From Planosporangium mesophilum (GTDB lineage Bacteria > Actinomycetota > Actinomycetes > Mycobacteriales > Micromonosporaceae): a stretch of DNA of 64,000 nucleotides. Under the pieces are notes generated by a model. The model worked only from the letters and a program-made list of their open reading frames with translations, was not told the DNA's origin and searched no databases. Positions 11,466 to 64,000 of the stretch are shown here, piece after piece. Made by a program: the position numbers and the translations under genes. Numbering within the stretch: position 1 is the first letter of the stretch; each line of letters opens with the position of its first letter. Location: NCBI RefSeq assembly GCF_016863255.1, contig NZ_BOON01000031.1, positions 62,001 through 126,000 of the forward strand. Reading direction: 5' to 3'.

Positions 11466-11969
11466 GTGTACTCGGACCCGGTTCTCGTACTGACGCTCAT
11501 CACCGTCGTGCTCTGGCTGGCGGTGATCGGCTGGCGACTGTGGCGCCGGGAGCGGGCGGATGGCGAAGGCCGGAGCGCCCGTGGCTGGGCCGACGAACCG
11601 GACTGGGACGAGACCTACGCGGACGGGTTCGACGAGGCCGAGACCGACGAGGACGAGGCCCCGGACTGGGACGACGAGCCGCGGCCGGCCGAGCGGCCGC
11701 TCCCCGCGGCACAGCGCGCCGAGGTCGCGATCAACCCCGGCAAGTGCATGCGGTTCGCGTTCTGCGAGCACGAGGCGCCCGCGGTCTTCAAGCTGACGGG
11801 TGACCGGATCGACTACAAGCCGTCGGTACCCGCCGACCAGGTCGACGCGGTCGCGATGGCGGTGAAGGTCTGCCCGGCGCGCGCGATCACGATGAAGCTA
11901 CCGGGAGTGAAGCCGTACCTGCCGCAGCCGCCGGTCGACGACGACGCGCGGCGGCCGGTGCGCCGGTAG
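11466..11969 (+). CDS. Membrane-anchored ferredoxin
   Basis: 167 residues from the GTG at 11466, which places the hydrophobic helix VLVLTLITVVLWLAVIGW at the very N-terminus; an upstream ATG at 11424 would add 14 residues. A long Asp/Glu-rich spacer (about residues 35-75) leads to a C-terminal ferredoxin domain with CMRFAFC (C-x5-C) and the remote VCPARAI. This is the three-plus-one cysteine layout of actinobacterial [3Fe-4S]/[4Fe-4S] ferredoxins. It closely resembles the ferredoxin domain of the fusion protein encoded at 13859-14782, which suggests a shared redox partner. Location: cytoplasmic face of the membrane. Confidence 0.75.
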   Translation: MYSDPVLVLTLITVVLWLAVIGWRLWRRERADGEGRSARGWADEPDWDETYADGFDEAETDEDEAPDWDDEPRPAERPLPAAQRAEVAINPGKCMRFAFCEHEAPAVFKLTGDRIDYKPSVPADQVDAVAMAVKVCPARAITMKLPGVKPYLPQPPVDDDARRPVRR

Positions 11970-11975
11970 GGGACG

Positions 11976-12323
11976 TCACGAGGAAGGAACGCCCGGCGCC
12001 CTGTCCGGCGCGGGATCGCCGCCGACGACCGCCAGCGCGCCCGTCACGTCGAGGACGCGGTACACCAGCCCGGTCGGGTTCACCACGCGAAGGCAGCAGT
12101 GCTCGCGGCGGGCGAGCCGCCAGAGCCGGACGATCACGCTGACCGCGGTCGAGTCGATGAACCGCAACTCGGCCAGGTCGAGTTGGACCGTTCCCGGGCG
12201 CCGCCGGGTGATGAGCCGGCGGACCATGGCCTCGAAGCCGTCCGCCACGCTGAGGTCCATCTCGCCGCACAGGGCGATGACCAGCCCCGATCCGTCCGCG
12301 CGTACCTGGTGCGTGAACGTCAT
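11976..12323 (-). CDS. STAS-domain anti-sigma factor antagonist
   Basis: 115 residues from the ATG at 12323, preceded by AAGGGCGG. The single STAS domain carries LCGEMDLSVADGFEAMV and the phosphorylation-loop signature LRFIDSTAVSVIVRL with the conserved serine. SpoIIAA-type proteins bind an anti-sigma kinase when unphosphorylated. Neither a kinase (RsbW-like) nor a phosphatase is adjacent, so the partner is elsewhere. Convergent with the ferredoxin gene, with 6 bp between stops. Confidence 0.82.
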   Translation of the reverse strand: MTFTHQVRADGSGLVIALCGEMDLSVADGFEAMVRRLITRRRPGTVQLDLAELRFIDSTAVSVIVRLWRLARREHCCLRVVNPTGLVYRVLDVTGALAVVGGDPAPDRAPGVPSS

Positions 12324-12488
12324 GGTCCGCCCTTTCCCGATGGTGCGGTGGGGTCCCGCCACGCCCACCGACACTGCGCCCCCCTCGGCCCTCCGCCACC
12401 GGTGACGGACCATCCGCCCGGCAACGGACCAGGAATGCGCTGGGTCGGCACCCTACCACCGTGCGCGACGCATTGGTGCACACCGATT

Positions 12489-12544: not shown

Positions 12545-13834
12545 TCAGCTCACGGCGGCCAGGCGGCGGCCCGACCCGGTACGGGTCTCCTCCGGCCGGC
12601 TCTTCGGCTGCGGCAGCACCCTGACCGGGGTGTCGATGAGCATCGCGCGGGTCGTCTCGGTGAACGCGCGGGCCGCGTTCACCGCGATCAGCCCCACCAG
12701 CTCGTCGTCGCGGTAGTAGCTGGCCATGACCCCGGCCCGCGCGGTGTCCCGCCGGCCCGGGCGCATCTCGGTCAGCACGATGTGATCGGTGGGCTTGAAG
12801 TCGCCGGCGACCATGACACGCAGGCCGTTCTGAAGCGTCCAGTACCGCGGCACGATGCCGACCGGTGGCACCTCGCGGTCGCCGGCGAGCAGCGTACGGG
12901 CGGCGGCGTGGCCCATCTCGACGGCGGCGATCCACTGCCCCACCATCATCGGCTCGCCACTGTAGAGCAGGTTGGGCCAGCGCACCGCGGCGCCCGCCGC
13001 GACGACCCCGTCGATGTGGGCGCCGGTGACATCGACCGCGCGCAGGCTCTCGTCGCACAGGATGCCGCGCGAGATGTCGATGCCGGTACCGGAGAGGAAG
13101 TCGGTGTCCGGCTTCTCACCCAGCGTCGCCACCACGATGTCGGCGTTGACGTACGAGCCGTCGTCGAGGGAGAGCCGCCAACCACCCCGGCGGCGCTCGA
13201 CCTCCTTCACCCGGCGGCCCAGCCGCATCTCCACCCCGAACCGGTCATGTTCGTCGGCGATGAGCGCTCCGATCGGCTCGCCGACGGCGCGGCCCATCAC
13301 GTACGGCTTGGGGTCGATCAGTACCGCCTCGCGGGCGAGCTCACGTACCGCGCAGGCCACCTCGCAGCCGGTGATACCGCCGCCGACGATCGCGACCCGC
13401 TCGGCGTGGCGCAGGTCCTGGCGCAGCTGCCAGGCCTCGTCGACGCTGTGCAGCACGTGCATGCCGGGGCCGTCCGGCCAGCCCTTGGGCAGCGTGGCGT
13501 AGCTGCCGGTCGCGAGGACGAGCCCGTCGAAGGCGTACTCCTCGTCGGTCTGGGTCAGCACCGTACGCCGGCGAAGGTCGACCTCGACGGCGCGGCGGCC
13601 GTGCTCCCACCGCACGTCCAGCCCGCCGTCGATCGGCATCCGGACGTCCTGCGGCCGGGCGTGCCCGGTCAGCAGGCTCTTGGAGCAGGCCGGCCGGTCG
13701 TACGGGGCGTCCGGCTCGTCGCACAGCAGCGTGATGTTGCCGGTGAAGCCCTGGCGGCGAAGCTCCTCGGAGGCGGCCATGCCCGCCGGTCCGCCGCCGA
13801 TCACCAGGACCCGGTCGGACCAGCCGTACTCCAT
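12545..13834 (-). CDS. FAD-dependent NAD(P)H:ferredoxin-reductase-like protein
   Basis: 429 residues from the ATG at 13834, which has AAGGAG six bases upstream. The N-terminal FAD fold VLVIGGGPAGMAASEELRRQGF is followed by PYDRPACSKSLLTG, the second dinucleotide fold ERVAIVGGGITGCEVACAV and the third FAD motif with VAAGAAVRWPN. This is the layout of rhodocoxin/putidaredoxin reductases and nitrite-reductase-type FAD proteins. It probably passes electrons from NAD(P)H to a ferredoxin. The gene directly follows (about 25 bp) a membrane ferric-reductase/ferredoxin fusion, its likely partner. Confidence 0.85.
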   Translation of the reverse strand: MEYGWSDRVLVIGGGPAGMAASEELRRQGFTGNITLLCDEPDAPYDRPACSKSLLTGHARPQDVRMPIDGGLDVRWEHGRRAVEVDLRRRTVLTQTDEEYAFDGLVLATGSYATLPKGWPDGPGMHVLHSVDEAWQLRQDLRHAERVAIVGGGITGCEVACAVRELAREAVLIDPKPYVMGRAVGEPIGALIADEHDRFGVEMRLGRRVKEVERRRGGWRLSLDDGSYVNADIVVATLGEKPDTDFLSGTGIDISRGILCDESLRAVDVTGAHIDGVVAAGAAVRWPNLLYSGEPMMVGQWIAAVEMGHAAARTLLAGDREVPPVGIVPRYWTLQNGLRVMVAGDFKPTDHIVLTEMRPGRRDTARAGVMASYYRDDELVGLIAVNAARAFTETTRAMLIDTPVRVLPQPKSRPEETRTGSGRRLAAVS

Positions 13835-52950: not shown

Positions 52951-53043
52951 GGTGAGGTTAGTGCACCCGGCTGTCAACTGCCAAGAGGTACGCGGCGCAC
53001 TCAGTCCCATCAATCCGGCGGCGAATCGTGGTAGACACAGGTC

Positions 53044-53889
53044 ATGGCGACCCTTCGATGGCTGCGGCCGACGGCACGCGTCCTCGCCACCCTGCTCGTG
53101 ACCACGGTCCTCAGCTGGACGCCGACCGCCGCCACGGCCGAGGCCGGCATCGTCCGAGCCTCCGCGCCGGCCGGGGCCGGCGGGCGCGGCCCGGCCGGGT
53201 TCGTCGCCTTGTCCGATGTGGATCACACGATCCTCCAGGACATCCGGTACGACACGTACCACAACTTCGTCGGCCGCCCGATTGTCGGCTACCGCGACCC
53301 GATCTGCATCCTCACCCGGCAGGCCGCCGAGGGCCTGCACCGGGCACAGGTCGCCGCTCAGAGCCTCGGGTACAGCCTCAAGGTCTACGACTGCTTCCGC
53401 CCCCAGCGCGCCGTGGACGACTTCGTACGCTGGGCGGAGCGCCTCGACGACCAGCGGATGAAGGCCGAGTTCTATCCGCGCGTGGACAAGACCGTGCTGT
53501 TCGCCGACGGGTACATCGCCAGCAGGTCGGGGCACAGCCGGGGCAGCACCGTCGACCTCACGCTGGTCGCCCTGCCGCCCCGCCCGCAGCGCCCGTACCT
53601 GCGGGGCGAGCCACTGGTCTCCTGTTTCGCGCCCCGGTGGCAGCGGTTCGGAGACAACACCGTGGACATGGGTACCGGATTCGACTGCTTCGACCCGCTG
53701 GCCAACACCCTCGACCCGCGGATCACCGGCCGCGCGATGGACAACCGCCTGCTCCTCAAGCAGGTGATGACGGACGCGGGCTTCACCAACTACGCCAGCG
53801 AATGGTGGCACTACACGCTCGCCGGCGAGCCGTACCCGGACACGTACTTCGACTTCCCGGTGGCGCGCCGAGCCGTGACGGGCGGATAA
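53044..53889 (+). CDS. Secreted D-Ala-D-Ala dipeptidase (VanX-like, M15D)
   Basis: 281 residues with a signal peptide (to about residue 32). Zinc/active-site motifs in order: VYDCFRPQRAVDDFV (catalytic Arg), SGHSRGSTVDLTL (H-x6-D) and ASEWWHYTL (E-x-x-H). M15D peptidases hydrolyse D-Ala-D-Ala or related D-dipeptides. Here it is exported, unlike resistance VanX, so it probably trims cell-wall dipeptides outside. 17 bp upstream of hypF on the same strand, but functional linkage is not obvious. Confidence 0.88.
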   Translation: MATLRWLRPTARVLATLLVTTVLSWTPTAATAEAGIVRASAPAGAGGRGPAGFVALSDVDHTILQDIRYDTYHNFVGRPIVGYRDPICILTRQAAEGLHRAQVAAQSLGYSLKVYDCFRPQRAVDDFVRWAERLDDQRMKAEFYPRVDKTVLFADGYIASRSGHSRGSTVDLTLVALPPRPQRPYLRGEPLVSCFAPRWQRFGDNTVDMGTGFDCFDPLANTLDPRITGRAMDNRLLLKQVMTDAGFTNYASEWWHYTLAGEPYPDTYFDFPVARRAVTGG

Positions 53890-53906
53890 CCAGGGCGGAG
53901 GTCGTC

Positions 53907-56225
53907 GTGGCGGACGAGGACACGCCGGTACGGTGGCGGATCCGGGTCGAAGGCATCGTCCAAGGGGTCGGCTTCCGGCCCTTCGTGTACGCCCTGGCCA
54001 TCCGCCACGGCCTGGCGGGGCTGGTCGGCAACGACGCGCAGGGGGTCTTCCTCGAGGTCGAGGGGCCCCCGTCCGGTGTCGCGGAGTTCCACCGTGACCT
54101 GACCCGCGAACCGCCGCCGCTTGCGGTCATCGAGCGGGTCACCGCCGAGCCGATGCCGGCGACCGGGCTGCCGGGTTTCGTGGTCGCCGCCAGCGAGCCC
54201 GGTGGCGAACGCCAGACGCTCATCTCACCCGACACCGCCACCTGCGCGGACTGCCTTCGTGAGCTGTTCGACCCGGTCGACCGCCGGTACCGGTACCCGT
54301 TCGTCAACTGCACCAACTGCGGCCCCCGGTTCACCATCGTCCGCGACGTCCCGTACGACCGGCCCTTCACCACGATGGCCGGGTTCCCGCTGTGCGCGGA
54401 GTGCGCCCGCGAGTACGCCGACCCGGCCGACCGGCGCTTCCACGCGCAGCCCGTGTGCTGCCCGGCGTGCGGCCCCCGGCTGCGGCTGATCACCTCGCCG
54501 GGCGAGGACATCACCGGCGCACCGCCGGGCGAGGACGTACCCGGTGACCCGATCGCGGCCACCGTCGCGCTGCTGCGGGCCGGCAAGGTCGTCGCCGTCA
54601 AGGGGCTCGGCGGCTACCATCTCGCGGCGGACGCGGCGTCGCCGGAGGGCGTCGCCGCGCTGCGCTCCCGCAAGCACCGCGAGGAGAAGGCCTTCGCGGT
54701 CATGGTGGCCGACGTCGCCGCCGCCCGGAAGCTGTGCGCCGTCGACGACGCCGAGGAGCGGGTGCTCACCAGTCCCCGGCGCCCGATCGTGCTGTTGCGG
54801 CGCCACCGGGACTCGGCGCTCGCCGAGCAGGTCGCACCGGGCAACCGGTTCCTCGGCCTGATGCTGCCGTACACGCCGCTGCACCATCTGCTGACCCGTG
54901 AACTCGACCGCCCGTTCGTCCTCACCAGCGGCAACGTGAGCGACGAACCGATCGCCTACGAGGACGCCGACGCGTTGGCCCGGCTGTCGCCGATCACCGA
55001 CGCCTTCCTGCTCCACGATCGGCCGATCCACATCCGTACCGACGACTCGGTCACCCGCGCGGTCGCCGGGCGGGAAATGCCGATCCGGCGCTCCCGCGGG
55101 TACGCCCCCGCTCCGCTGCGCCTGGGCCGCGCCGTCCCCCGCCCGGTGCTCGGCTGCGGTGCGGAGCTGAAGAACACGTTCTGCCTGGCGAAGGGCGAGT
55201 ACGCGTTCGTCTCGCACCACATCGGCGACCTGGAGAACTACGCCACCCTGCGCTCGTTCACCGATGGGGTCGCACACTTCCGGCGGCTGTTCGACATCGA
55301 TCCGCAGGTGATCGCGCACGACCTGCACCCCGAGTACCTGTCCACGAAGTACGCCCTGGACCAGACCGCGATCGGCCACCGGGTACCGGTGCAGCACCAC
55401 TGGGCCCACATCGCCTCCTGTCTGGTCGACAACGGGGAGGTGGAGCCGGTCATCGGGGTGGCCTTCGACGGCCTCGGCTACGGCGAGGACGCCACCATCT
55501 GGGGCGGCGAGTTCCTGGCCGCCGACCTGACCAGCTTCGAGCGCGTCGGGCTCCTCGAACCGGTACGGATGCCGGGCGGGGTGGCGGCGATCCGGCAGCC
55601 CTGGCGGATGGCGGCCGCGTACCTCGACGCCGCGTTCGCCGGCGACCCGCCCCGGGATCTGGCGGTGGCCGAGCGCAACGCGTCCACCTGGGACGCCGTG
55701 CTCGCGGTGGGGCGCTCCGGGCTCAACTCCCCGCTCACCTCGAGCGCGGGTCGCCTCTTCGACGCCGTCGGCGCGCTGCTGGGCGTACGCGACGTCATCA
55801 GCTACGAGGGTCAGGCCGCGGTGGAGCTGGAGCAGCGCGTCGACCCGCACGCGGACGGGGCGTACGAGGTCGGGTTCGCCGAGGGGCGACCGTTCCGGGT
55901 ACGCGGAGCCGACCTGGTCCGGGCGGTCGTGGCCGACCTGCACCGTCACGTGCCGGTCGAGACGATCGCGATGCGCTTCCACCGGGGTATGGCGACGGCG
56001 ATCGTGGCCGGCGCCGAGCGGGCCCGGGCGGCGACCGGGCTGTCGGCCGTGGCCCTGTCCGGTGGCGTGTTCCAGAACATGGTGCTGCTGTCGGGCGCCG
56101 TCGAAGGGCTGAGCCGGCGGGGTTTCCGGGTGCTCACGCACCACCGTGTGCCGCCCAACGACGGCGGGATCAGCCTCGGCCAGGTCGCGGTCGCCGCCGC
56201 CCGCGACCGGGCCGGGCTGGTGTGA
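53907..56225 (+). CDS. hypF: Carbamoyltransferase HypF (hydrogenase maturation)
   Basis: 772 residues from the GTG at 53907, with GGAGG five bases upstream. Domains in order: acylphosphatase (IVQGVGFRPFVY, about 10-95), two zinc fingers with CADCLRELF, CTNCGPRF, CAECAREY and CPACGPRL (about 110-190), YrdC-like carbamoyl-adenylate domain (GGYHLAADA, SGNVSDEPI) and Kae1-like domain (ending with SGGVFQNMVLLSG and NDGGISLGQ) with QHHWAHIASC. Makes the thiocyanate on HypE for the CN ligands of the [NiFe] centre. Convergent with the rest of the hyp operon; only 3 bp separate the stops. Confidence 0.96.
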   Translation: MADEDTPVRWRIRVEGIVQGVGFRPFVYALAIRHGLAGLVGNDAQGVFLEVEGPPSGVAEFHRDLTREPPPLAVIERVTAEPMPATGLPGFVVAASEPGGERQTLISPDTATCADCLRELFDPVDRRYRYPFVNCTNCGPRFTIVRDVPYDRPFTTMAGFPLCAECAREYADPADRRFHAQPVCCPACGPRLRLITSPGEDITGAPPGEDVPGDPIAATVALLRAGKVVAVKGLGGYHLAADAASPEGVAALRSRKHREEKAFAVMVADVAAARKLCAVDDAEERVLTSPRRPIVLLRRHRDSALAEQVAPGNRFLGLMLPYTPLHHLLTRELDRPFVLTSGNVSDEPIAYEDADALARLSPITDAFLLHDRPIHIRTDDSVTRAVAGREMPIRRSRGYAPAPLRLGRAVPRPVLGCGAELKNTFCLAKGEYAFVSHHIGDLENYATLRSFTDGVAHFRRLFDIDPQVIAHDLHPEYLSTKYALDQTAIGHRVPVQHHWAHIASCLVDNGEVEPVIGVAFDGLGYGEDATIWGGEFLAADLTSFERVGLLEPVRMPGGVAAIRQPWRMAAAYLDAAFAGDPPRDLAVAERNASTWDAVLAVGRSGLNSPLTSSAGRLFDAVGALLGVRDVISYEGQAAVELEQRVDPHADGAYEVGFAEGRPFRVRGADLVRAVVADLHRHVPVETIAMRFHRGMATAIVAGAERARAATGLSAVALSGGVFQNMVLLSGAVEGLSRRGFRVLTHHRVPPNDGGISLGQVAVAAARDRAGLV

Positions 56226-56228
56226 CGG

Positions 56229-56630
56229 TCAGCCTCCCTGGTCACCCCGCTGCAGGTTCGGGCTCTCCTCGTCGATGGGGCCCTGCGCGTTGACGCCGGA
56301 CGAGTCCCGCTCGTCCGAGGTGCCGTACGGGCGCTCGGACGCGCCCTTCGTACCCTCGTCGGTCCGTCCGGACTCCTGGTCGGCGCCGACCTCCTCGCCG
56401 CGGCGGGTCATGCTCTCGCCGACGCCGAGGGGCGTCTCGGCGTCCATGTCGGTGGGCGGCACGCCGCTCTCGTCGACGGCATCGTCGTGGTAGCCGCCTT
56501 CGCCCGCGACATTGGACGACCGGCTGATCGGGTTCTCCTGGATTGCGCCTCCCGCGCCCTTCTCGTCGTCGTAGGGCGGCAGTGGGTGTTCGTCGCCCCG
56601 CTCGTAGGGCGGGACCTGGTGTTGGGTCAT
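56229..56630 (-). CDS. Small acidic, probably disordered protein at the end of the hyp operon
   Basis: 133 residues, almost without hydrophobic residues: rich in Gly, Asp, Glu, Ser and Pro with no predicted fold. AGGGAG lies seven bases before the ATG. 11 bp downstream of the hypE stop on the same strand, so co-transcribed. I do not recognise a family. It may be a general stress-type disordered protein placed here by chance or a real operon member. Confidence 0.6.
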   Translation of the reverse strand: MTQHQVPPYERGDEHPLPPYDDEKGAGGAIQENPISRSSNVAGEGGYHDDAVDESGVPPTDMDAETPLGVGESMTRRGEEVGADQESGRTDEGTKGASERPYGTSDERDSSGVNAQGPIDEESPNLQRGDQGG

Positions 56631-56641
56631 GGGGCGTCTCC

Positions 56642-57724
56642 CTAACAGATGCGTGGCAGTGGGTCGCCGACGAGGACGTCGACGATGCGGGTACCGCCGA
56701 ACTCGGTCTTGAGCAGCACCAGCGACGGCGGGTCCGCCTTGACCTGACCGATGACGGCGGCCTCGGTACCCTGCGGATGCGTGCGCAGCGCGTCGAGGGC
56801 CGCGTCGGCGTCCTCGGGGGCTACCACGGCGATGAACCGACCTTCACAGGCGACGTACAGCGGATCAATTCCCAGGATCTCGGACGCCCCGCGGACCTCG
56901 GTCCGCACCGGAACGGCACGCTCGTCGAGGACGACGGCCACGTCCGAGGCGCGCGCCACCTCGTTGAGGACCGTCGCCACGCCGCCGCGGGTGGCGTCAC
57001 GCAGGCAGCGAACCCCGGGGGCGGCGGCGAGCAGCCGGTCGACGAGGTCGGCCAGTGGCGCCGTGTCCGACGTGAGGTCCGCTTCGATGTCCAGTTCGCC
57101 GCGGGCGAGCATGATGGTGATGCCGTGGTCGCCGATCGGCCCGGAGACCAGGACGACGTCGCCGGGCCGGGCGCGGCTGGCGCCCAGCGTGAGGTCGTGG
57201 GAGATGACGCCGACGCCCGCGGTGTTGATGTAGCAGCCGTCGGCCTTGCCGCGCTCGACGACCTTGGTGTCCCCGGTGACGATCTGGACCCCGGCCGCCT
57301 CGGCGGCGCGGGCCATCGACTCGGCGATGCGGACGAGGTCCTCGGTCGGTAACCCCTCCTCCACGATGAACCCGCTGGACAGGTACCGGGGCCGGGCACC
57401 CGACATGGCAAGGTCGTTGACCGTACCGTTGACGGCCAGCTCGCCGATGTCGCCGCCCGGGAAGAACAGCGGGTGGACCACGAACGAGTCGGTGGTGAAC
57501 GCCAGCCGCGGCCCGCCCAGCGAGAGCACCGCCTGGTCTTCCAGCGGTTCGAGCAACGGGTTGCGGAACGCCTCGAGGAACACCGCCTCGATCAGGGTGT
57601 GGGTCGCCTTGCCCCCGGCACCGTGGGCCAGGGTGATCCGTTCGTCCTTGATCTTCGCCCGGCGCCGGCGGGCCTTGTCGATGCGCTCGAGGACCTGCCG
57701 TTCCCGGTCGTCGACGCTCGTCAT
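56642..57724 (-). CDS. hypE: Hydrogenase maturation protein HypE
   Basis: 360 residues from the ATG at 57724, overlapping the hypD stop. AIRS/PurM-like ATPase: ERITLAHGAGGKATHTLIEAVFL, FTTDSFVVHPLFFPGGDIGELAVNGTVNDLAMSGARP, then GDTKVVERGKADG and LRDATRGGVATVLNE. Ends in PRIC, the C-terminal cysteine that carries the thiocarboxamide and thiocyanate. The N-terminus has 30 extra residues with a basic KARRRRAK segment before the usual start. Confidence 0.95.
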   Translation of the reverse strand: MTSVDDRERQVLERIDKARRRRAKIKDERITLAHGAGGKATHTLIEAVFLEAFRNPLLEPLEDQAVLSLGGPRLAFTTDSFVVHPLFFPGGDIGELAVNGTVNDLAMSGARPRYLSSGFIVEEGLPTEDLVRIAESMARAAEAAGVQIVTGDTKVVERGKADGCYINTAGVGVISHDLTLGASRARPGDVVLVSGPIGDHGITIMLARGELDIEADLTSDTAPLADLVDRLLAAAPGVRCLRDATRGGVATVLNEVARASDVAVVLDERAVPVRTEVRGASEILGIDPLYVACEGRFIAVVAPEDADAALDALRTHPQGTEAAVIGQVKADPPSLVLLKTEFGGTRIVDVLVGDPLPRIC

Positions 57725-58857
57725 GAGCGCGTCGCCTCCATCACGCGGGTACGGGTGAACCGGCCGAAGTTGTAGTACGCCGCGCACGCGCCCTCGGGCG
57801 AGACCATGCAGGTGCCGATCGGCGTCTCCGGGGTGCACGCGGTGCCGAACACCTTGCACTCCCACGGCTTCAGGACGCCCTTGAGGACCTCGCCGCACTG
57901 GCAGGCCTTCGGGTCGGCCACCCGCACGCCGGGCAGGTCGAAGATGCGTTCGGCATCGAAGCGGGCGTACTCCTCCCGTACCTTCAGCGCGGAGTGGGAG
58001 ATGAAGCCGAGGCCCCGCCACTCGAAGTACGGGCGTAGCTCCATGACCTCGTTGATGACTCCGAGTGCCCTGAGGTTGCCGTCCCACGGCACGACCCGGC
58101 TGTACTGGTTCTCCACCTCGCAGCGGCCCTCGGACAGCTGGACGAGGATCATGTAGATGGTCTGGAGGATGTCCAGCGGCTCGAACCCGGCGACGACCAG
58201 GGGCTTGTCGTACTGGCGGGTGATGAAGTCGTACGGCCGGCAGCCGATGACCGTGGAGACGTGACCGGGGCCGATGAACCCGTCCAGGCGCAGGTCCGGC
58301 GAGTCGAGGATGGCCTTGATCGCCGGGATGATCGTGACATGGTTGCAGAAGATCGAGAAGTTCTCGACCCCCTCCTTGGCGGCCCGCAGGACCGTCATGG
58401 CGGTCGACGGCGCGGTGGTCTCGAACCCGATCGCCATGAACACCACGCGCTTGTCCGGGTTCTGCTTGGCGATCTTCAGCGCGTCCAGCGGGGAGTACAC
58501 CATGCGGATGTTCGTGCCCGCCGCGTTGGCGTCGAAGAACGTGTCGCCGCTGCCCGGTACCCGCATCATGTCGCCGAACGACGTCATGATGACGTCGGGC
58601 TGCCGGGCGATGTAGATGGCGTCGTCGACCCGGCCCATCGGGATCACGCAGACCGGGCAGCCGGGCCCGTGTACCAGCGTGACGGACTCCGGCAGGTAGT
58701 CCTCCAGTCCGTGCTTGTAGATGGTGTGGGTGTGCCCACCGCACACCTCCATGAACTTGTACTGCCGGCCCGGCTCGCACAGCTCGGCGATCCGGGCGGC
58801 CAGTGCCTGTGCCTTGTCCGCGTCGCGGTACTCGTCGACGAATCGCATCCGTGTCAT
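57721..58857 (-). CDS. hypD: Hydrogenase maturation protein HypD
   Basis: 378 residues. FMEVCGGHTHTIYKHGL, HGPGCPVCVIPM and the [4Fe-4S] cysteines in CQCGEVLKG, PWECKVFGTACTPETPIGTC. Scaffold for Fe(CN)2CO assembly together with HypC. 63 bp downstream of hypC, a gap that holds a hairpin (58881-58914). Confidence 0.96.
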   Translation of the reverse strand: MTRMRFVDEYRDADKAQALAARIAELCEPGRQYKFMEVCGGHTHTIYKHGLEDYLPESVTLVHGPGCPVCVIPMGRVDDAIYIARQPDVIMTSFGDMMRVPGSGDTFFDANAAGTNIRMVYSPLDALKIAKQNPDKRVVFMAIGFETTAPSTAMTVLRAAKEGVENFSIFCNHVTIIPAIKAILDSPDLRLDGFIGPGHVSTVIGCRPYDFITRQYDKPLVVAGFEPLDILQTIYMILVQLSEGRCEVENQYSRVVPWDGNLRALGVINEVMELRPYFEWRGLGFISHSALKVREEYARFDAERIFDLPGVRVADPKACQCGEVLKGVLKPWECKVFGTACTPETPIGTCMVSPEGACAAYYNFGRFTRTRVMEATRS

Positions 58858-58880
58858 CTCTACCTCGATCCGGGCCGATT

Positions 58881-58914
58881 GGCCGCGGGTGCCGCACAGG
58901 CGCCACCCGCGGCC
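58881..58914 (-). other. Hairpin in the hypC-hypD gap
   Basis: 11-bp inverted repeat (58881-58891 and 58904-58914) with a 12-nt loop in the only sizeable gap within the operon. Possible attenuator or mRNA-processing or stability element. Confidence 0.45.
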
Positions 58915-58920
58915 CGGTTG

Positions 58921-59193
58921 TCATTCGATCTTGGATTCGCGCAGGGCGTTCAGCTCGTCCTCGTACGCCTGGCCGATCCCTTCCAGGAACTCCAGCGCCG
59001 CCTTGGCCTCGGACTCGTCGATTTTGGACAGAGCGAAGCCGACATGGATCAGGATCCAGTCCCCGCGCCCCAGGCTCTCGCCCTCGAGCAGCCCGATGTT
59101 GATGGCCCGCCGCACGCCACTGACGTCCACCCGGGCCAGGTCCGGGTGGTCATCCATGATCTCGATGACCTCACCGGGAATCCCCAGACACAT
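58921..59193 (-). CDS. hypC: Hydrogenase assembly chaperone HypC/HupF
   Basis: 90 residues. Starts MCLGIPG with the functional Cys2, followed by VDVSGVRRAINIGLL and GDWILIHVGFALSKIDESEA. Chaperone that carries the Fe(CN)2CO unit from HypD to the large subunit. Overlaps hypA by 23 bp. Confidence 0.95.
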   Translation of the reverse strand: MCLGIPGEVIEIMDDHPDLARVDVSGVRRAINIGLLEGESLGRGDWILIHVGFALSKIDESEAKAALEFLEGIGQAYEDELNALRESKIE

Positions 59194-59575
59194 CCGAACT
59201 CACCTCCTCGCGCGGCGTACCGCTCGCGCCCGGCGTGCCGTTCTCGGCCACCGTGATGGACTCGAGCACCAGCTCGTCGCCACCGATCAGCTCGGTCCCT
59301 GACGCGCCGCAGGCCGGGCAGAGGGCCACCGGCTCGGCGGTCTCGTCCTGCCAGCCACAGGCCGGGCAGGCGGCCCGCGCCGGTACGGTGACCAGCTCCA
59401 CCGCCGCGCCCTCGGCTACCGTCCCCGCCGACACGAGCGCGAACGCCTGCTCCAGCGACGGCTCCACCACGCGGTGCAGGACACCGATGCGCATCCGGAC
59501 TGCGGTCACCCGGCGCCCGGCGGCCCGCCGCTCGATGGCCTCGACGAACGGCTCACAGAGGCCGATCTCATGCAT
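59171..59575 (-). CDS. hypA: Nickel-insertion protein HypA
   Basis: 134 residues. Starts MHEIGLCEPFVEAI (His2-Glu3 nickel site). The zinc site is CPACG followed by CPACG. A C-terminal extension of about 20 residues rich in Gly/Pro/Ser/Glu reaches into hypC. Delivers Ni2+ to the large subunit, normally with HypB, which is not in the window. 4 bp after the second tiny membrane protein gene. Confidence 0.93.
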   Translation of the reverse strand: MHEIGLCEPFVEAIERRAAGRRVTAVRMRIGVLHRVVEPSLEQAFALVSAGTVAEGAAVELVTVPARAACPACGWQDETAEPVALCPACGASGTELIGGDELVLESITVAENGTPGASGTPREEVSSDVSGDSR

Positions 59576-59579
59576 GCGA

Positions 59580-59687
59580 TCACATCCTGCGGATGCGCAG
59601 GTAACGGTTGATGTCGGGGAGGCTCACGATCAGGAAGGCCGCCACGATCACCACCACCACCGCGATCAGCCACAACCACCAGGTCAT
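59580..59687 (-). CDS. Tiny membrane protein (35 aa) in the hydrogenase operon, copy 2
   Basis: 35 residues. One membrane helix WLWLIAVVVVIVAAFLIV, then SLPDINRYLRIRRM at the C-terminus. GGAG lies six bases before the ATG at 59687. 10 bp after copy 1 and 4 bp before hypA. Shares the SLPD-(I/L)-x-RYL-(K/R)-IR ending with copy 1; I recall small actinobacterial proteins with this tail as DUF6893. Function unknown. Too short for most gene finders. Confidence 0.75.
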   Translation of the reverse strand: MTWWLWLIAVVVVIVAAFLIVSLPDINRYLRIRRM

Positions 59688-59697
59688 CGTCGTCTCC

Positions 59698-59802
59698 TCA
59701 CATCATCCGAATCTTCAGGTAGCGCGCGAGGTCGGGAAGCGACTGCACCACGACCACGGCGACACCGACGACCAGTAACGGGACCATCACTCGCCGTATC
59801 AT
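59698..59802 (-). CDS. Tiny membrane protein (34 aa) in the hydrogenase operon, copy 1
   Basis: 34 residues. MIRRVM followed by a hydrophobic helix (about 7-19) and SLPDLARYLKIRMM. Starts 6 bp after the protease stop; GAGAGGG lies about a dozen bases before the ATG, inside the end of the protease gene. Paralogue of copy 2, probably by tandem duplication. A single N-in or N-out helix with a basic amphipathic tail could tether the hydrogenase or its maturation proteins to the membrane; that is inference. Confidence 0.75.
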   Translation of the reverse strand: MIRRVMVPLLVVGVAVVVVQSLPDLARYLKIRMM

Positions 59803-59808
59803 CGGCGC

Positions 59809-60294
59809 TCACACCCTCTCCGTTTCGTTGGCTACCAGGTCCAGTACGGTCCGGACCGCGTTGTCCACGGCCGCCTCGACCGGCGCGGACAGCCCGATCC
59901 GGTCGGTCATGTCGGCCGGCTCGCACCCCACGATCAGGACCCGGTCGAGGGTGCCGCCGAGCGTGTGGACCAGCGCGAGCACGGTGTCCGGGGTCATGTC
60001 GTGCGCGTCCATCGCCGGGCCGCCGCTGTCGGGGACCGCGGTCACGTCGGGTTCGAAGACGTACACCGTGCCGGGCGGCTCGCCGCGCGAGAGCGCGTCG
60101 ACGAGAATGACCGTCTCGTACCCGTCGAGCAGTTCGTACGCGAGGTGCACGCCGCGGATGCCGTAGTCGGCGACCTTGACGCCGGGCGGCAGTTCGGTGC
60201 CGAGCAGGCGGCGGACCACCTCCACCCCGAAGCCGTCGTCGCCCAGGAAGACGTTGCCGATCCCCGCCACCAGCCACCGGGCCCGCTCGGTCAT
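59809..60294 (-). CDS. Hydrogenase maturation protease (HyaD/HycI/HupD type)
   Basis: 161 residues. LVAGIGNVFLGDDGFGVEVVRRL (nickel-binding Asp/Glu region), VADYGIRGVHLAYELLDGYETVILVDAL and a conserved His in MDAHDMTPDTVLALVHTLGG, all typical of NiFe endopeptidases. Removes the C-terminal peptide of the large subunit after Ni insertion. Overlaps the 440-residue protein gene by 4 bp. Confidence 0.93.
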   Translation of the reverse strand: MTERARWLVAGIGNVFLGDDGFGVEVVRRLLGTELPPGVKVADYGIRGVHLAYELLDGYETVILVDALSRGEPPGTVYVFEPDVTAVPDSGGPAMDAHDMTPDTVLALVHTLGGTLDRVLIVGCEPADMTDRIGLSAPVEAAVDNAVRTVLDLVANETERV

Positions 60295-61613
60295 GACGCC
60301 TCCTCCACGAGCTCGACCTCGCCGGGGGCGAAGTACAGGAACCGGCCGACCGAACGGTTCAGCTCCGCGGCCGGATCGTCGTCGAGCGTCACCGCGAGAT
60401 GGGTCGAGCCGTCGACGTCGAACAGCACCGCCTCGACCGTGGCGGTACGGTCCTGCAGGAACATGTCCTGGGCGTCCGCCCGGCCCATCGGATGCAGCCG
60501 GACCCGGCTGCCCCGCCGCGCCAACCCGCCGGGGACCGGGACGCTGTCGGTCTCCGGGTTGACCGAGCGGTCCGCGCCCGGGTCCCACCACGGCTGCGGG
60601 TCCGCCTTGCCGCCGTTGCCACCGTTCGACCCCGGCATCTCGGCCACCTCCTCGTCGCCGGTGGGCTCCCGCATCTCGGGCACACCGTCGTCACCGGTGA
60701 CCCGGCGCAGGTACCGCACCGCGCCATGAAGGCGCTCCAGTACCTCCCCCGGCATGTTGTCGGCACGGTCCACAATGGCCGCCGCGCGCGGGTCGGTCTC
60801 CCGCGCCTCCCGCTTCTCCTCGTCGGTCAGCGTCATCGTGCGCAGCGTCAGCAGCTCGTCGATCTCGGTGCCGTCGTAGAAGTCCCCCGTGCTCTCCGGG
60901 GCGATCTCCGGGTGGTCGTACAGGATGATCGGCGAAGACAACATCACGTCACGCCGGCCCTCGCCGACCAGTACCGGCCAGGTGTGCTCGTTCCGGCACG
61001 ACGCGACCGCGTCTTGCGCCCACTCCGGCGGTTCGAGCAGCGAGACGAACTGGCCGGACCGCACCGACAGCAGCGCATGGGTACTGATCAGCGCGAACGG
61101 GAGCATCTCGGCGCGCGGCGCGTCCGGGTCGTGGTCGGCGGCCGTGTGGTTCTCCACCTGGATCCGCACCCGCAGCAGCCCGTACGGCCCCTCGATCGGG
61201 GTCGTGGCGATCCGGATGACGCCGGAGAGCCGCGAGCGACGGCGTACCACGTCACCCTCGGTCTCCGAGCCGCCGGGGATGGCGAATCCGGTCGTCTGCT
61301 CGTCGGCGCCCGGCTTGAGGACGGCGGTCGCGGTCACCTCCTGCACCACGCCCTCGTCCCAGACGGGCGGGCCCTCCCGCCGCTGGATCTGCAGGAAGCG
61401 TACGGTCACGGTCAGCTCGGGATCGGTGTCGTCCGGTTCGACCAGGCACTCGGTCCGGGAGAACCACGGCTCGCTCCCGGCGGCACCGCGCGGGGCGAGT
61501 ACCCCGAACTGCCAGCGCACCTGGTTCTTCGCCGCCGAGGCGCGGTACGGGTACAGCACGTACCCCTCGAACAGCACGGTGTCGGCGACCTGCCGGGCCA
61601 ACTCCAGGCTCAC
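60291..61613 (-). CDS. Hydrogenase-cluster protein of unknown function (440 aa)
   Basis: 440 residues, no membrane segment. The N-terminal part (about 1-280) is beta-rich: VLFEGYVLYPYRASAAKNQVRWQFGVLAP, TECLVEPDDTDPELTVTVRFLQ, VRIQVENHTA and LISTHALLSV. A Gly/Asn-rich linker (about 325-350) precedes a small C-terminal beta domain (RRGSRVRLHPMGRADAQDMFLQDRTATVEAVLFDVDG...HLAVTLDDDP) that recalls an OB-like or HypC-like module. I believe homologues accompany actinobacterial hydrogenases, but I do not know a function. Start and stop overlap both neighbours, so it is a core operon member. Confidence 0.8.
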   Translation of the reverse strand: MSLELARQVADTVLFEGYVLYPYRASAAKNQVRWQFGVLAPRGAAGSEPWFSRTECLVEPDDTDPELTVTVRFLQIQRREGPPVWDEGVVQEVTATAVLKPGADEQTTGFAIPGGSETEGDVVRRRSRLSGVIRIATTPIEGPYGLLRVRIQVENHTAADHDPDAPRAEMLPFALISTHALLSVRSGQFVSLLEPPEWAQDAVASCRNEHTWPVLVGEGRRDVMLSSPIILYDHPEIAPESTGDFYDGTEIDELLTLRTMTLTDEEKREARETDPRAAAIVDRADNMPGEVLERLHGAVRYLRRVTGDDGVPEMREPTGDEEVAEMPGSNGGNGGKADPQPWWDPGADRSVNPETDSVPVPGGLARRGSRVRLHPMGRADAQDMFLQDRTATVEAVLFDVDGSTHLAVTLDDDPAAELNRSVGRFLYFAPGEVELVEEAS

Positions 61614-62251
61614 CTCACCACCTCCCCGGCCTCGGCCAGCAGCACCTGCAGCGTCTCCTCCCAGGTGGCGAGGGTCCGCTCGGACTTGAACCTGGCCAGC
61701 GCCGCGAGCGTGTCACGGTGCAGCCGCAGCCAGGCGCTGTTCGGGAAGTGGTAGTCCATGGTTTCGCGCCAGACCCGTACCGGCAGCCGGTAGTTGCACT
61801 CCTTGTGCCACGGCACCTGCTCCACCTGCATGCCGGCCGGCCCCTGCAGGAAGACCGTGCCGCTGAACAGGAGCAGCAGCGGGACGTCGCCGCCTGCGAG
61901 CGCGTCGAAGTACCGCGTGGAGGCGACCTCGAGGTCGTAGCTGCACGGCACCGGCAGCTCGATCTCGATGCTGTTGCGGAACGCCGGCACCAGGGCCGAC
62001 ACGGTCGCGAACTGGAGTGGCTTGAGGGTGTCGCCCCACCGGTCGGGGGTGCCGAAGAGGTCGTTCAGCCGCTCGGCCTCCCCCTCGTCGTACGTGCGCC
62101 GAACGGGTTGGATGCGCATCTGGCAGCGCAGCCCGATGGCGCCGACCTGAGCACCGGTGGTCTCGGCCACCCGCAGCACGAGGGTCAGGATCGGTGCGGC
62201 CGCGTACCGCTCGGCACGGGAATCGATGCAGTCGAAGACGAGCTCCCCCAT
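61610..62251 (-). CDS. DUF6084-type hydrogenase-cluster protein
   Basis: 213 residues, soluble. Begins near ELVFDCIDSRAERYAAAPILTLVLRVAETTG, with RYDxGEAERLNDLFGTPDRWGDTLKPLQF-like RTYDEGEAERLNDLFG, a beta-rich middle (IEIELPVPCSYDLEV) and a C-terminal helical region with HKECNYRLPVRVWRETMDYHFPNSAWLRL. The assignment to DUF6084 is from memory of proteins in actinobacterial hydrogenase loci. One base after the DUF5947-type gene; overlaps the 440-residue protein gene by 4 bp. Confidence 0.75.
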   Translation of the reverse strand: MGELVFDCIDSRAERYAAAPILTLVLRVAETTGAQVGAIGLRCQMRIQPVRRTYDEGEAERLNDLFGTPDRWGDTLKPLQFATVSALVPAFRNSIEIELPVPCSYDLEVASTRYFDALAGGDVPLLLLFSGTVFLQGPAGMQVEQVPWHKECNYRLPVRVWRETMDYHFPNSAWLRLHRDTLAALARFKSERTLATWEETLQVLLAEAGEVVR

Positions 62252-62252
62252 G

Positions 62253-62888
62253 TCAGGCCTCGTCCCCGGCCGGCCGGGCGTCCTCGGCTCGCTCGACCAC
62301 CCGGTCGAAGAAGGCGTCGACCTCGCGCCACACGTCCTCGCCGCCGTCGAAACCGCGCCAGTTCATGCGCATCCGGCCCACCAGCTCGTAGCAGGCGTCG
62401 ATGGGTACGAGGTAACCCTCGAAGCGGTCGCCGGCGCGGCGCAGCACGACCGCCTCGACGTCGGGGGCGAGGTCGGCGACGCTCGCGTTGGCCGCCAGGA
62501 TCTCCGACCAGGCCTCGGTCGGCAGCATCGACTCGGTCGCCCCCGCCGGGCCGGGGTAGAAGGCGACGTGACGATCCTGCTCGGCGTTGCGGAACACGAA
62601 GATCAGGTTCACTGGGACACCAAGCTCGTCCCACTGCGCCGGGGTCATCCGGAACTCCGGGTCGTACCGGTACCGGTCCGGGATGGCGCGGTACCTGTTC
62701 TGGGCCGCGCCATCCCGGGTGAACAGCAGGTAGCACGCCCGGCAGGCGCACATCACGGTGCGGCCCTTCAGGTCGGCCACGTGCGAGTGGTCCGGACCGA
62801 GCGGCTCGGCGCACATCTCGCACCGCTCGCCGGGGACCACCTTGGCGCGCGTGCCCTCGATGAATCGCCGCAGCCCCGGAGCTGTCAT
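62253..62888 (-). CDS. DUF5947-type protein with cysteine-rich metal site
   Basis: 211 residues from the ATG at 62888 (ATGA overlap). Near the N-terminus CEMC (Cys23, Cys26) and CACRAC (Cys47, Cys49, Cys52) flank a H-x-H (34-36), a compact zinc- or iron-binding module; LLFTRDGAAQNRYRAIPDRY follows. The rest is a mixed alpha/beta domain with LIFVFRNAEQDRHVAFYPGPAG. I associate this with DUF5947 proteins next to NiFe hydrogenases; function unknown, possibly metal or redox. Confidence 0.77.
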   Translation of the reverse strand: MTAPGLRRFIEGTRAKVVPGERCEMCAEPLGPDHSHVADLKGRTVMCACRACYLLFTRDGAAQNRYRAIPDRYRYDPEFRMTPAQWDELGVPVNLIFVFRNAEQDRHVAFYPGPAGATESMLPTEAWSEILAANASVADLAPDVEAVVLRRAGDRFEGYLVPIDACYELVGRMRMNWRGFDGGEDVWREVDAFFDRVVERAEDARPAGDEA

Positions 62889-63772
62889 GAGGCCACCTCG
62901 ACCGGCAGCGCGATGCGGACCGCGCCGCCAGCGTCCTCCAGCAGCGGGAGCGGCTCGAGGTGTGCGCCGTCCTCGCCGCGTCCGGCGAGCCGGACGTCGT
63001 ACCGCACACCGCAGCCGCCGCAGGAGAGCCAGGTGCCGGTCAGCGTGCCATCCACAAGGGACATCCCGCAGCCGGGGCAGGCGTCCCGGTACGCGACGAG
63101 CCTGCCGTCGGCGCGGCACACCGCGACCCGCTGCCCGCCGAGCGTCACCAGGCGCACCGACCCGGATTCGAGCGTGGACAGCGACGACACCTCCTGCCAC
63201 TCCCCGGTGGCGTCAGCCGGGTTCGTACGCTGGCGCAGCGACTCGACGGGAATGAGCCGCGGCCCCGGAGCGGGCGGCGCCGCCACCCCCTCGGCATCGA
63301 CGCGGAGCACCTCGGGCGCCGCCTCCAGGATCGCCCGCTCGATGGCCAGCTTCACGGTCATCGCCGAGGAGGGGCAGCCGTCGCAGCTGCCCTCCAGCCG
63401 CAGCCGCACCACCCCGTCGTCGTCGATTCCGAGAAGCTCCACGCCGCCGGCGTGCGAACCGAGGTACGGGCGGACCCCGTCGAGGGCGCGCTGCACCCGC
63501 TCGGCCACGCCGAGCGGGTGCAGCCCGTGCAGGATCAGCAGGCTGGCGACGAGGTCGTCGGCGGCGAACCTGTCGGCCAGGGCGGCGCTGTCCTCGCTCG
63601 CCGCGACGATCTCGACGATGCGGGACAGCCCCTCCCCGTACACGTCCACCAGCAGGCTCACCAGTTCCTCGGCCCGCTCGCTCACCCGCGCGTCGGCCTC
63701 CTCGCCGAGTTCGGCGAGGAGTTGCTCGACGCGGGCACCGGCCTTCCGGACATCCGGTGTAGTCGTGGTCAT
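62885..63772 (-). CDS. NifU C-terminal domain fused to a Rieske-like domain with all-cysteine ligands
   Basis: 295 residues from the ATG at 63772. Residues 1-90 helical. A NifU/Nfu domain (about 90-160) has RPYLGSHAGGVELLGIDDDG and CDGC (130-133). A Rieske-like beta domain (about 190-290) has CPGC (232-235) and CGGC (251-254) exactly where Rieske proteins have C-x-H and C-x-x-H. Four cysteines would bind iron or zinc like a rubredoxin, or an all-Cys [2Fe-2S] cluster. First gene after the large subunit, 4 bp away. May build or relay clusters for the hydrogenase. Confidence 0.83.
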   Translation of the reverse strand: MTTTTPDVRKAGARVEQLLAELGEEADARVSERAEELVSLLVDVYGEGLSRIVEIVAASEDSAALADRFAADDLVASLLILHGLHPLGVAERVQRALDGVRPYLGSHAGGVELLGIDDDGVVRLRLEGSCDGCPSSAMTVKLAIERAILEAAPEVLRVDAEGVAAPPAPGPRLIPVESLRQRTNPADATGEWQEVSSLSTLESGSVRLVTLGGQRVAVCRADGRLVAYRDACPGCGMSLVDGTLTGTWLSCGGCGVRYDVRLAGRGEDGAHLEPLPLLEDAGGAVRIALPVEVAS

Positions 63773-63776
63773 GCGT

Positions 63777-64000
63777 TCACGCCGAACCGGTGAACGCCGT
63801 CGGGGTGTGCAGTTTCTGGAGCGTCTTGCCGTTGCCGAGGTACATGTGCACGCCACAGGGCAGGCACGGGTCGAAGCTGCGCACGGCCCGCATGATGTCG
63901 ATGCCCTTGAAGTTGTCCGGCGGGTTCTCCTCGAAGATCGGCGTGTTCTGCACGGCGTCCTCGTACGGGCCGGGCGTGCCGTACGAGTCGCGCACGCTGC
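63777..64000 (-). CDS. [NiFe]-hydrogenase large subunit (C-terminal part, cut by window end)
   Basis: The frame is open through the right edge; only the last 74 residues are visible. RDSYGTPGPYEDAVQNTP and FDPCLPCGVHMYLGNGK contain the L2 motif D-P-C-x-x-C-x-x-H that holds the Ni-Fe centre through two cysteines. After the histidine a 22-residue tail (MYLGNGK to the final FTGSA) should be removed by the maturation protease encoded at 59809-60294. CLPCGVH suggests a group 1 uptake enzyme, likely group 1h, but this needs the full sequence. The promoter and small subunit lie outside the window. Confidence 0.93.
   Translation of the reverse strand, partial: SVRDSYGTPGPYEDAVQNTPIFEENPPDNFKGIDIMRAVRSFDPCLPCGVHMYLGNGKTLQKLHTPTAFTGSA

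Follow-up and report, generated by a model that had tools for sequence, protein, structure and literature searches.

The 64,000-nucleotide stretch of Planosporangium mesophilum DNA considered here (hereafter the window; bases 62001-126000 of a 179.6-kb contig in a 6.6-Mb genome) ends within an operon that, judged by its sequence, is a group 1h (group 5; high-affinity HhySL-type) [NiFe]-hydrogenase locus with an accessory module specific to this group. The accessory genes are tightly linked, go with group 1h enzymes in the samples searched and keep their order across six phyla. As the best explanation of the whole we slightly favor a 1h hydrogenase that works with this group-specific module and is held at the membrane by DUF6893, a microprotein of which the window encodes two copies.

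A group 1h hydrogenase with an accessory module

Only the 3' end of the large-subunit gene hhyL lies within the window (63777-64000, minus strand); the gene, a single copy in the 6.6-Mb genome, runs on to approximately position 65582. Since its product scores 1055.6 bits against HofG of Cupriavidus necator (PDB 5aa5) while the next solved structure reaches only 146.8 bits, we assign the enzyme to group 1h. Among the matches listed for the phylum sample described below, it shares 64-89% identity with large subunits of 1h loci and 34-44% with the other long matches below E 1e-80. Both subunits lack a hydrophobic membrane segment, the best 19-residue Kyte-Doolittle (KD) means being 1.43 for HhyS and 1.06 for HhyL.

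On the minus strand hhyL is followed by hhyE (62885-63772), which encodes a NifU domain (Pfam 1.5e-22) and a four-cysteine Rieske-like C-terminal domain (3.2e-9), and by genes for a DUF5947 protein with a CxxC-HxH-CxCxxC metal-site motif (62253-62888; Pfam 1.2e-73, 247 bits) and a DUF6084 protein (61610-62251; 5.4e-89, 298 bits). Then come U440, a 440-residue protein (60291-61613), a maturation protease of the HycI/HupD family (59809-60294; TIGR00072 1e-37, Pfam HycI) and the two DUF6893 microproteins tm1 (34 aa; 59698-59802; PF21833 5.7e-10; C-terminus LPDLARYLKIRMM) and tm2 (35 aa, a tandem paralog; 59580-59687; 1e-11; C-terminus LPDINRYLRIRRM). The preliminary description, made from the letters and open reading frames (ORFs) alone, had already spoken of DUF5947- and DUF6084-type proteins, a 440-residue unknown and two tiny membrane proteins; Pfam agrees on the two named families, places both tiny proteins in DUF6893 and, like NCBIfam, returned no family match for U440.

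Group 1h enzymes with adjacent conserved hypothetical genes (hhaABC) are already in print (PMC6776052), as are four genes without an assigned function next to hhyL in methanotrophs, noted in 2025 (PMC12319191), and six hypothetical proteins in the 1h cluster, from a comparison of R. equi in 2026 (PMC13332983). A large share of atmospheric H2 removal has been attributed to group 1h hydrogenases (PMC7174314).

The accessory genes follow the enzyme

From the phylum of the window's organism 296 genomes were drawn evenly. At least 140 of them contain large-subunit matches and at least 30 are group 1h-like, defined as at least 65% identity in at least a fragment; short weak 1h fragments may lie outside the matches listed. 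DUF6084 was detected in 27, DUF5947 in 26 and U440 in 28 genomes. Of the DUF6084 genomes, 24 are among the listed 1h-like genomes, while in the remaining three (G228, G254, G328) DUF6084 lies at most about 950 bp from the edge of its contig, next to the remaining cassette genes. All 26 DUF5947 and all 28 U440 genomes are likewise among these or, as G167 and G210, have U440 and DUF5947 but no DUF6084. Among the matches listed, wherever one of the three families occurs, a 1h large subunit accompanies it or a contig end truncates the operon. None of them was found in genomes of this sample that possess only other group 1-like hydrogenases, nor in five non-1h loci that were read (L066-L070). Six 1h-like genomes are devoid of DUF6084: the two just named and four with only large-subunit fragments (G146, G169, G223, G265).

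To look beyond this phylum, we collected 80 named loci with the large subunit as the sole query. A back-translated alignment of DUF6084 had proved too variable to scan the collection with; the large subunit took its place and is also the less biased query. By phylum labels assigned by hand, these loci cover Pseudomonadota, Acidobacteriota, Verrucomicrobiota, Planctomycetota, Chloroflexota and Actinomycetota. A locus was considered assessable if 5.8 kb or more of sequence was available on the downstream side of hhyL and, in addition, 5.8 kb on the upstream side or a detected U440 or DUF6084, the last clause favoring presence; 63 loci remained and 17 of the 80 were set aside. Both U440 domains were present in all 63, hhyE, DUF5947, DUF6084 and the protease in 62 each and DUF6893 in 59, and DUF5947, DUF6084 and U440 are consecutive in 62. 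The exception L130 (Planctomycetota) has no hhyE, DUF5947, DUF6084 or DUF6893. With 5.8 kb required on both sides of hhyL and no presence clause, 56 loci were left, all with hhyE, DUF5947, DUF6084 and U440, and 55 each with the protease and DUF6893 (L125 lacks both). The downstream rule alone admits 64 loci (hhyE, DUF5947 and DUF6084 in 62 each, U440 and protease in 63 each, DUF6893 in 60), and without any filter the counts among the 80 are 78 for hhyE, 72 each for DUF5947 and DUF6084, 71 for the U440 N-terminal domain, 69 for the protease and 65 for DUF6893. Three Streptomyces-type loci (L048, L049, L075) carry U440 upstream of hhyS and no DUF6084.

Ordinary flanking genes were rejected as an explanation, given that DUF6084 occurs in 0 of 263 genomes without a listed 1h-like match or a contig-cut cassette; chance or an annotation artifact was rejected on co-occurrence and synteny. 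The preliminary description had proposed that all these genes work with the enzyme, and their linkage to it is supported by the co-occurrence in 296 genomes and the conservation of the operon. DUF6084, DUF5947 and U440 are not frequent without a hydrogenase in the 296 genomes, nor are the accessory genes missing from most homologous operons (present in 62-63 of 63 loci, and in 56 of 56 under the stricter flank rule).

The DUF6893 microproteins

With 39.5 bits (tm1) and 45.1 bits (tm2) both microproteins exceed the PF21833 gathering cut-off of 24.6. While the Pfam entry itself is without a function, we add the link to 1h operons and a C-terminus tied to the stop codon: family members comprise about 35 residues with one hydrophobic segment and the C-terminus [P/K]D-x2-RYL-[KR]-[IM]-R-x-M, which ends at the stop. 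The hydrophobic segments reach mean KD values of 2.37 (tm1) and 3.18 (tm2), and no other protein of the window's operon has so hydrophobic a segment (best 19-residue means 1.72 for DUF6084 and the 1.43 of HhyS).

A profile built from the first-found members was searched against 134 loci (L003, L023-L155) and returned 86 copies in 82 of them, 85 of which end in methionine exactly at the stop, the profile itself being Met-terminated. Independent of this profile, we scanned both strands of L003 and the 80 named loci for ORFs of 26-110 aa with a hydrophobic segment and R/K-Y/F...M at the very end. This pattern matched 63 times in the 133 kb that follow the protease or U440, versus 3 times in 2.85 Mb elsewhere (1 in 1.36 Mb on the same strand, 2 in 1.49 Mb on the opposite strand). 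Each of these three appears to be a genuine member at another place in a 1h locus, namely upstream of hhyS (L098), upstream on the opposite strand (L083) and in a second, reversed 1h operon (L118). For the named loci, presence was set by hand from pattern matches in L106 and L084, and L083 and L098 were counted via their upstream copies. Over the last 12 codons the identity by codon position is 0.66/0.80/0.50, which is why we regard the conservation as acting at the protein level.

In the phylum sample PF21833 matched 26 genomes. Of these 21 also contain DUF6084, three more (G189, G234, G307) have the gene beside hyp genes, and two partial matches within long frames (G252, 795 aa; G300, 597 aa) were treated as spurious. 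In G189 hyp and SIS genes surround a decayed 1h operon (L157, approximately 6155-7436), in which two hhyS remnants and a weak U440 trace run into DUF6893 and the protease. Six DUF6084 genomes gave no PF21833 match: G081, where the contig ends, G221, with an interrupted U440 and no protease found, and G139, G142, G163 and G302, whose large subunits are 65-66% identical to that of the window. Searched for across complete genomes, DUF6893 matched once in each of two Verrucomicrobiota and one Ktedonobacteria genome, and the family was not found in the five non-1h hydrogenase loci examined.

The gene is often unannotated. On C. necator plasmid pHG1 it lies between the protease and hypF without a gene call (L072, 13667-13756), and the public record of a M. 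intracellulare plasmid has none either (L074, approximately 11973-12089). Two DUF6893 paralogs per operon were observed in the window (59580-59802) and in L039, L042, L088 and L092. In the Acidobacteriota loci L088 and L092 the two differ in type, which suggests that hetero-oligomers may form. Searching the literature by name, we found no paper that names DUF5947 or DUF6893 and none that ties such a peptide to a hydrogenase; most subscription papers and all preprints lay outside this coverage, so that an earlier mention of DUF6893 may exist there. DUF6084 is named in one paper, on aurodox biosynthesis, within the same coverage.

Methylacidiphilum-like loci keep a minimal set

The 1h enzyme of M. 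fumariolicum, a bacterium that grows on H2 with it, is reported to be membrane-associated despite lacking a membrane anchor, its Km shifting from 140 to 300 nM upon detachment, and homologs of the hypothetical proteins of the Pyrinomonas 1h operon are described as absent (PMC7174314). Among 288 genomes from the phylum of the Verrucomicrobiota locus L090 we found two further 1h genomes, of 2.2 and 2.5 Mb, with 75-76% large-subunit identity and 39.6-39.7% G+C at the loci, which presumably represent Methylacidiphilum. Both loci carry an unannotated DUF6893 microprotein (21 bits) immediately upstream of hhyS; downstream of hhyL, the opposite strand encodes U440, DUF6084 and the protease. HhyE, searched for at the loci rather than genome-wide, and DUF5947 were not found at either locus. 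Nor did DUF5947 match anywhere in the two genomes, while the same family matched 26 of the 296 phylum-sample genomes. The persisting set therefore consists of DUF6893, DUF6084, U440 and the protease, which suggests from gene content that the universal parts of the module do not include HhyE and DUF5947.

A candidate membrane tether and its alternatives

Membrane attachment of the 1h enzyme has been termed pivotal for its affinity in a study that found no anchor (PMC7174314). We give roughly even chances to the proposal that DUF6893 is the missing tether, which would dock HhySL, or a DUF6084/U440 adaptor, at the quinone pool and thereby set the H2 affinity in vivo. Three observations lead us to it: no other protein of the window's operon possesses a comparable hydrophobic segment, DUF6893 is retained in the genomes with the smallest accessory set, and the published study names no anchor for a membrane-associated enzyme (PMC7174314). 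Such a subunit of about 35 residues, near-universal and often unannotated, would also be present in lineages described as anchor-free or cytoplasmic. Of the three roles that the preliminary description had offered, oxygen tolerance among them, membrane attachment fits the tiny proteins best, while electron delivery by HhyE or DUF5947 would not be general, neither having been found at the two Methylacidiphilum-like loci.

We envisage the following arrangement. HhySL would be made, and would work, in the cytosol, matured by the Hyp proteins and the protease. DUF6084 and U440 may form a cytosolic assembly or adaptor pair, the U440 barrel having been likened to PetP and PsaE of photosynthetic electron-transport complexes. 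DUF6893 would sit in the membrane by its single helix, with the basic C-terminus in the cytosol, a placement based on the positive-inside rule. Its PD-x2-RYL-x-IR-x-M end might then dock onto the hydrogenase or the adaptor and keep the enzyme close to the quinone pool. In many lineages HhyE and DUF5947 carry cysteine sites; where present, the two proteins could help to supply clusters or pass electrons, and would not be indispensable everywhere.

Several observations weigh against DUF6893 as a tether. No recognizable member was found in L102, L125, L126 and L130 of the 63 assessable loci, nor in L033 and the actinobacterial L050-L052 and L054 (large subunits 65-66% identical). In L082, L084 and L106 it was found by the pattern only, and in the Streptomyces-type L048, L049 and L075 a divergent form was recognized by eye (PxLxRExRIWRM, then about 12 more residues). 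The Cupriavidus enzyme is reported as cytoplasmic and of low affinity (PMC7174314), yet pHG1 carries a DUF6893 gene; that enzyme was purified after homologous expression (PMC7174314), so that the peptide was possibly not supplied to it. For DUF6084 and the C-terminal domain of U440, the structural matches are to common folds and point to no function. As a weak exception to the association itself, two diverged solo U440 N-terminal domains lie away from any hydrogenase gene found (L030, 8737-9702; L031, 4420-5280); they lack the conserved TEIDE region, and the L030 copy adjoins both SIS genes.

DUF6893, DUF6084, U440 and DUF5947 might alternatively be maturation factors only, a 1h counterpart of the Hox chaperones (HoxO, HoxQ, HoxR, HoxT, HoxV), which help assemble oxygen-tolerant membrane hydrogenases. 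DUF6893 would then bring assembly to the membrane briefly, and no trace would remain in the finished enzyme. We hold this to be possible, though well short of probable. It would fit that, in most cases, the genes are flanked by the structural genes on one side and by the protease and hyp genes on the other, that DUF5947 has a zinc-ribbon-like cysteine/histidine set, that purified M. fumariolicum Hyd-1h shows two bands, HhyL and HhyS (PMC7174314), although a 4-kDa peptide could escape the gel, and that an artificial acceptor cannot bypass the loss of HhyE (PMC6883350). However, no homology to these chaperones was found: DUF5947, DUF6084, U440 and HhyE show no profile similarity to the five C. 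necator Hox proteins, with hhalign probabilities of 0.0-1.8% against single-sequence targets that leave room for distant homology, and a constantly kept hydrophobic helix exceeds what a soluble chaperone set needs. The group 1d set of C. necator (HoxZ and the same five proteins) resembles the module in operon position and possibly in its tasks, i.e., anchor, small-subunit chaperoning and a rubredoxin-like protein. It differs in that DUF5947, DUF6084, U440 and HhyE have no detectable homology to it (DUF6893 was not part of this comparison) and in that the proposed 1h anchor is a peptide of 34-35 residues rather than a cytochrome b.

It appears unlikely that HhyE and/or DUF5947 are the outlet through which electrons leave HhyS for menaquinone, the other proteins serving as a scaffold. 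In M. smegmatis HhyE is required for H2 oxidation and co-localizes with HhyLS on native gels, and MSMEG_2717, a homolog of C. necator PHG067, was named as candidate electron acceptor (PMC6883350). By gene order PHG067 is probably the DUF5947 homolog, and the CxxC-HxH-CxCxxC set is present in 106 of 108 DUF5947 proteins, the other two having a longer spacing or being cut by a contig end. Against this stands that only 48 of 113 group 1h HhyE proteins (some incomplete), and 0 of 16 from Pseudomonadota, have an intact NifU CxxC, because of which HhyE is unlikely to be a universal outlet. Moreover, neither protein was found at the two Methylacidiphilum-like loci, which retain the other four, and DUF5947 is without a match in both genomes, although M. 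fumariolicum grows on H2 (PMC7174314). Least credible, to a degree that we hardly take it into account, is that the tiny ORFs represent a DNA or RNA element instead of proteins. Their very small size would fit this, as would the missing gene calls in the records of pHG1 and the M. intracellulare plasmid, but the codon-position identities given above, 78 distinct peptides from 84 distinct DNA stretches, and a hydrophobic segment and stop position kept across six phyla all speak for proteins.

Properties of the other accessory proteins

The cysteines of the window's HhyE (C130, C133, C232, C235, C251, C254) form a NifU CxxC and two C-terminal CxxC pairs, beside hhySL as in M. smegmatis; the window copy shows no difference of its own from that protein, while the family at large often lacks cysteines. 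A signature of four C-terminal cysteines, as opposed to the CxH of HucE, has been published for HhyE (PMC6883350). The NifU/Rieske-like fusion of the preliminary description is correct in so far as both domains are matched; however, the second reads CPGC...CGGC and lacks the CxH of Rieske proteins and HucE. As CxxC...CxxC replaces CxH, "Rieske" denotes a fold match without Rieske ligands.

For DUF6084, AlphaFold2 (mean predicted local distance difference test score, pLDDT, 92) predicts an Ig-like beta sandwich with C-terminal helices. The best fold match of this model is IrmA (Z 9.7, 103 residues, root mean square deviation (rmsd) 3.0), and Foldseek gave many Ig-like matches (KirBac, ApaG, others), none pointing to a function. 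The U440 model (mean pLDDT 80) suggests a beta-rich N-terminal domain and a C-terminal SH3-like barrel. Residues 15-232 may resemble the N-terminal domain of DrmA in fold, with 10% identity and rmsd 3.6 over 167 residues (Z 11.1; Foldseek E 1.2e-4). DrmA is part of the DISARM phage-defense complex, and no defense context was seen around U440. The predicted barrel (residues approximately 347-437) resembles PetP of cytochrome b6f (Z 7.9, 75 residues, rmsd 3.1) and PsaE (Z 6-7), and was also compared with nitrile hydratase beta; many other SH3-like proteins tie with PetP. Among loci with both domains, each domain has a gene of its own in 16 of 18 from Acidobacteriota and 5 of 6 from Chloroflexota.

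Operon layout and neighboring genes

Behind the microproteins follow, all on the minus strand, hypA (59171-59575; Pfam 8.4e-25), hypC (58921-59193; 3.2e-24), hypD (57721-58857; 63% identity to the annotated pHG1 gene), hypE (56642-57724; 58%, likewise) and an acidic hydrophilic tail protein (56229-56630; net charge -20). The twelve packed minus-strand genes of the preliminary description are thus confirmed (56229-63772), and so are its hyp genes and protease, with hypA, hypC and HycI recognized by Pfam and hypD and hypE by similarity to pHG1. Its account of the spacing holds for the 4-bp overlaps, the small gaps and the 63 bp between hypC and hypD, but with the starts used hypA and hypC overlap by 23 bp, so that the gaps range from -23 to +63 bp. 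From hhyL to the protease they are 4, -4, 1, -4 and -4 bp, and from the protease through tm1, tm2, hypA, hypC, hypD and hypE to the tail gene 6, 10, 4, -23, 63, -4 and 11 bp. A long plus-strand frame converges on the operon (53028-56225) and may, as read by eye, be hypF.

The tail protein, without a match in Pfam or NCBIfam, was detected in 3 of 41 related genomes, one of them that of the window and the other two with weak matches. Across the 134 loci it exceeds 100 bits in three (L003, L032, L058) and reaches 21-47 bits in six more. In L032 and L058 full-length relatives (48-50% identity) also directly follow hypE, and it may thus be a lineage-level extra outside the core. The at least six conserved but unassigned accessory genes of the preliminary description were therefore too generous a count: the tail protein is patchy, a role for HhyE is published, and the DUF5947 homolog PHG067 was earlier proposed as an electron acceptor (PMC6883350).

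Beyond the window's end the operon continues upstream to approximately window position 68324 with the small-subunit gene and then two genes for SIS-domain proteins that enclose one for a HypC-like protein. Such pairs of phosphoheptose-isomerase-like SIS proteins flanking a HypC-like gene were observed upstream of hhyS in L003, L032, L083, L119 and others; the L003 genes (11696-12388, 12651-13325) correspond to approximately 66695-68324 of the window. In the pairs the second protein lacks the equivalents of H61 and E65 of GmhA (0 of 24 keep both), while the first keeps both in 12 of 13, and solo copies keep HEQH in 22 of 25. Perhaps the pair combines a catalytic and a degenerate partner in the service of maturation. 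In L069 (11857-13190) the same arrangement adjoins hypD/hypE beside a non-1h hydrogenase (40% identity), and it may thus belong to maturation generally rather than to group 1h.

Compared with known systems, the order hhyS-hhyL-NifU-DUF5947-DUF6084-U440-protease of pHG1 (HofKG; Hhy in M. smegmatis) matches the window, which differs in having two tandem DUF6893 genes where one is usual and in the paired SIS set upstream. Huc (group 2a, with the HucM scaffold) feeds electrons from high-affinity H2 oxidation into the quinone pool, as does Hhy. Here the window's operon differs, since its genes match other families (HucM itself was not searched for) and its HhyE is of the four-cysteine type, whereas HucE is of the CxH type. 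The 1h small subunit is annotated as "hydrogenase expression protein HypE" in L072 (6867-7922), L073 (5946-7025) and L074 (5571-6626), although these proteins share 67-82% identity with HhyS. On the M. intracellulare plasmid, which is typed as mobilizable, the 1h operon is followed within approximately 0.7 kb by NADH-quinone oxidoreductase genes A-G (L074, 4395-20639), which may offer an electron route to the adjacent enzyme.

Implications

The published accounts considered here leave open by what means a cytosolic 1h enzyme that has no membrane segment is attached and gains access to the quinone pool (PMC7174314, PMC6883350). Electron roles for HhyE and the DUF5947 homolog were already proposed (PMC6883350), while the link between DUF6893 and 1h operons is added here. 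A near-universal membrane peptide with a rigid C-terminus makes the question of attachment testable by a single gene, and attempts to rebuild the oxygen-insensitive 1h enzyme for biotechnology should include DUF6893, DUF6084 and U440. If our proposal is true, DUF6893 would be the missing tether of the 1h hydrogenases that oxidize atmospheric H2.

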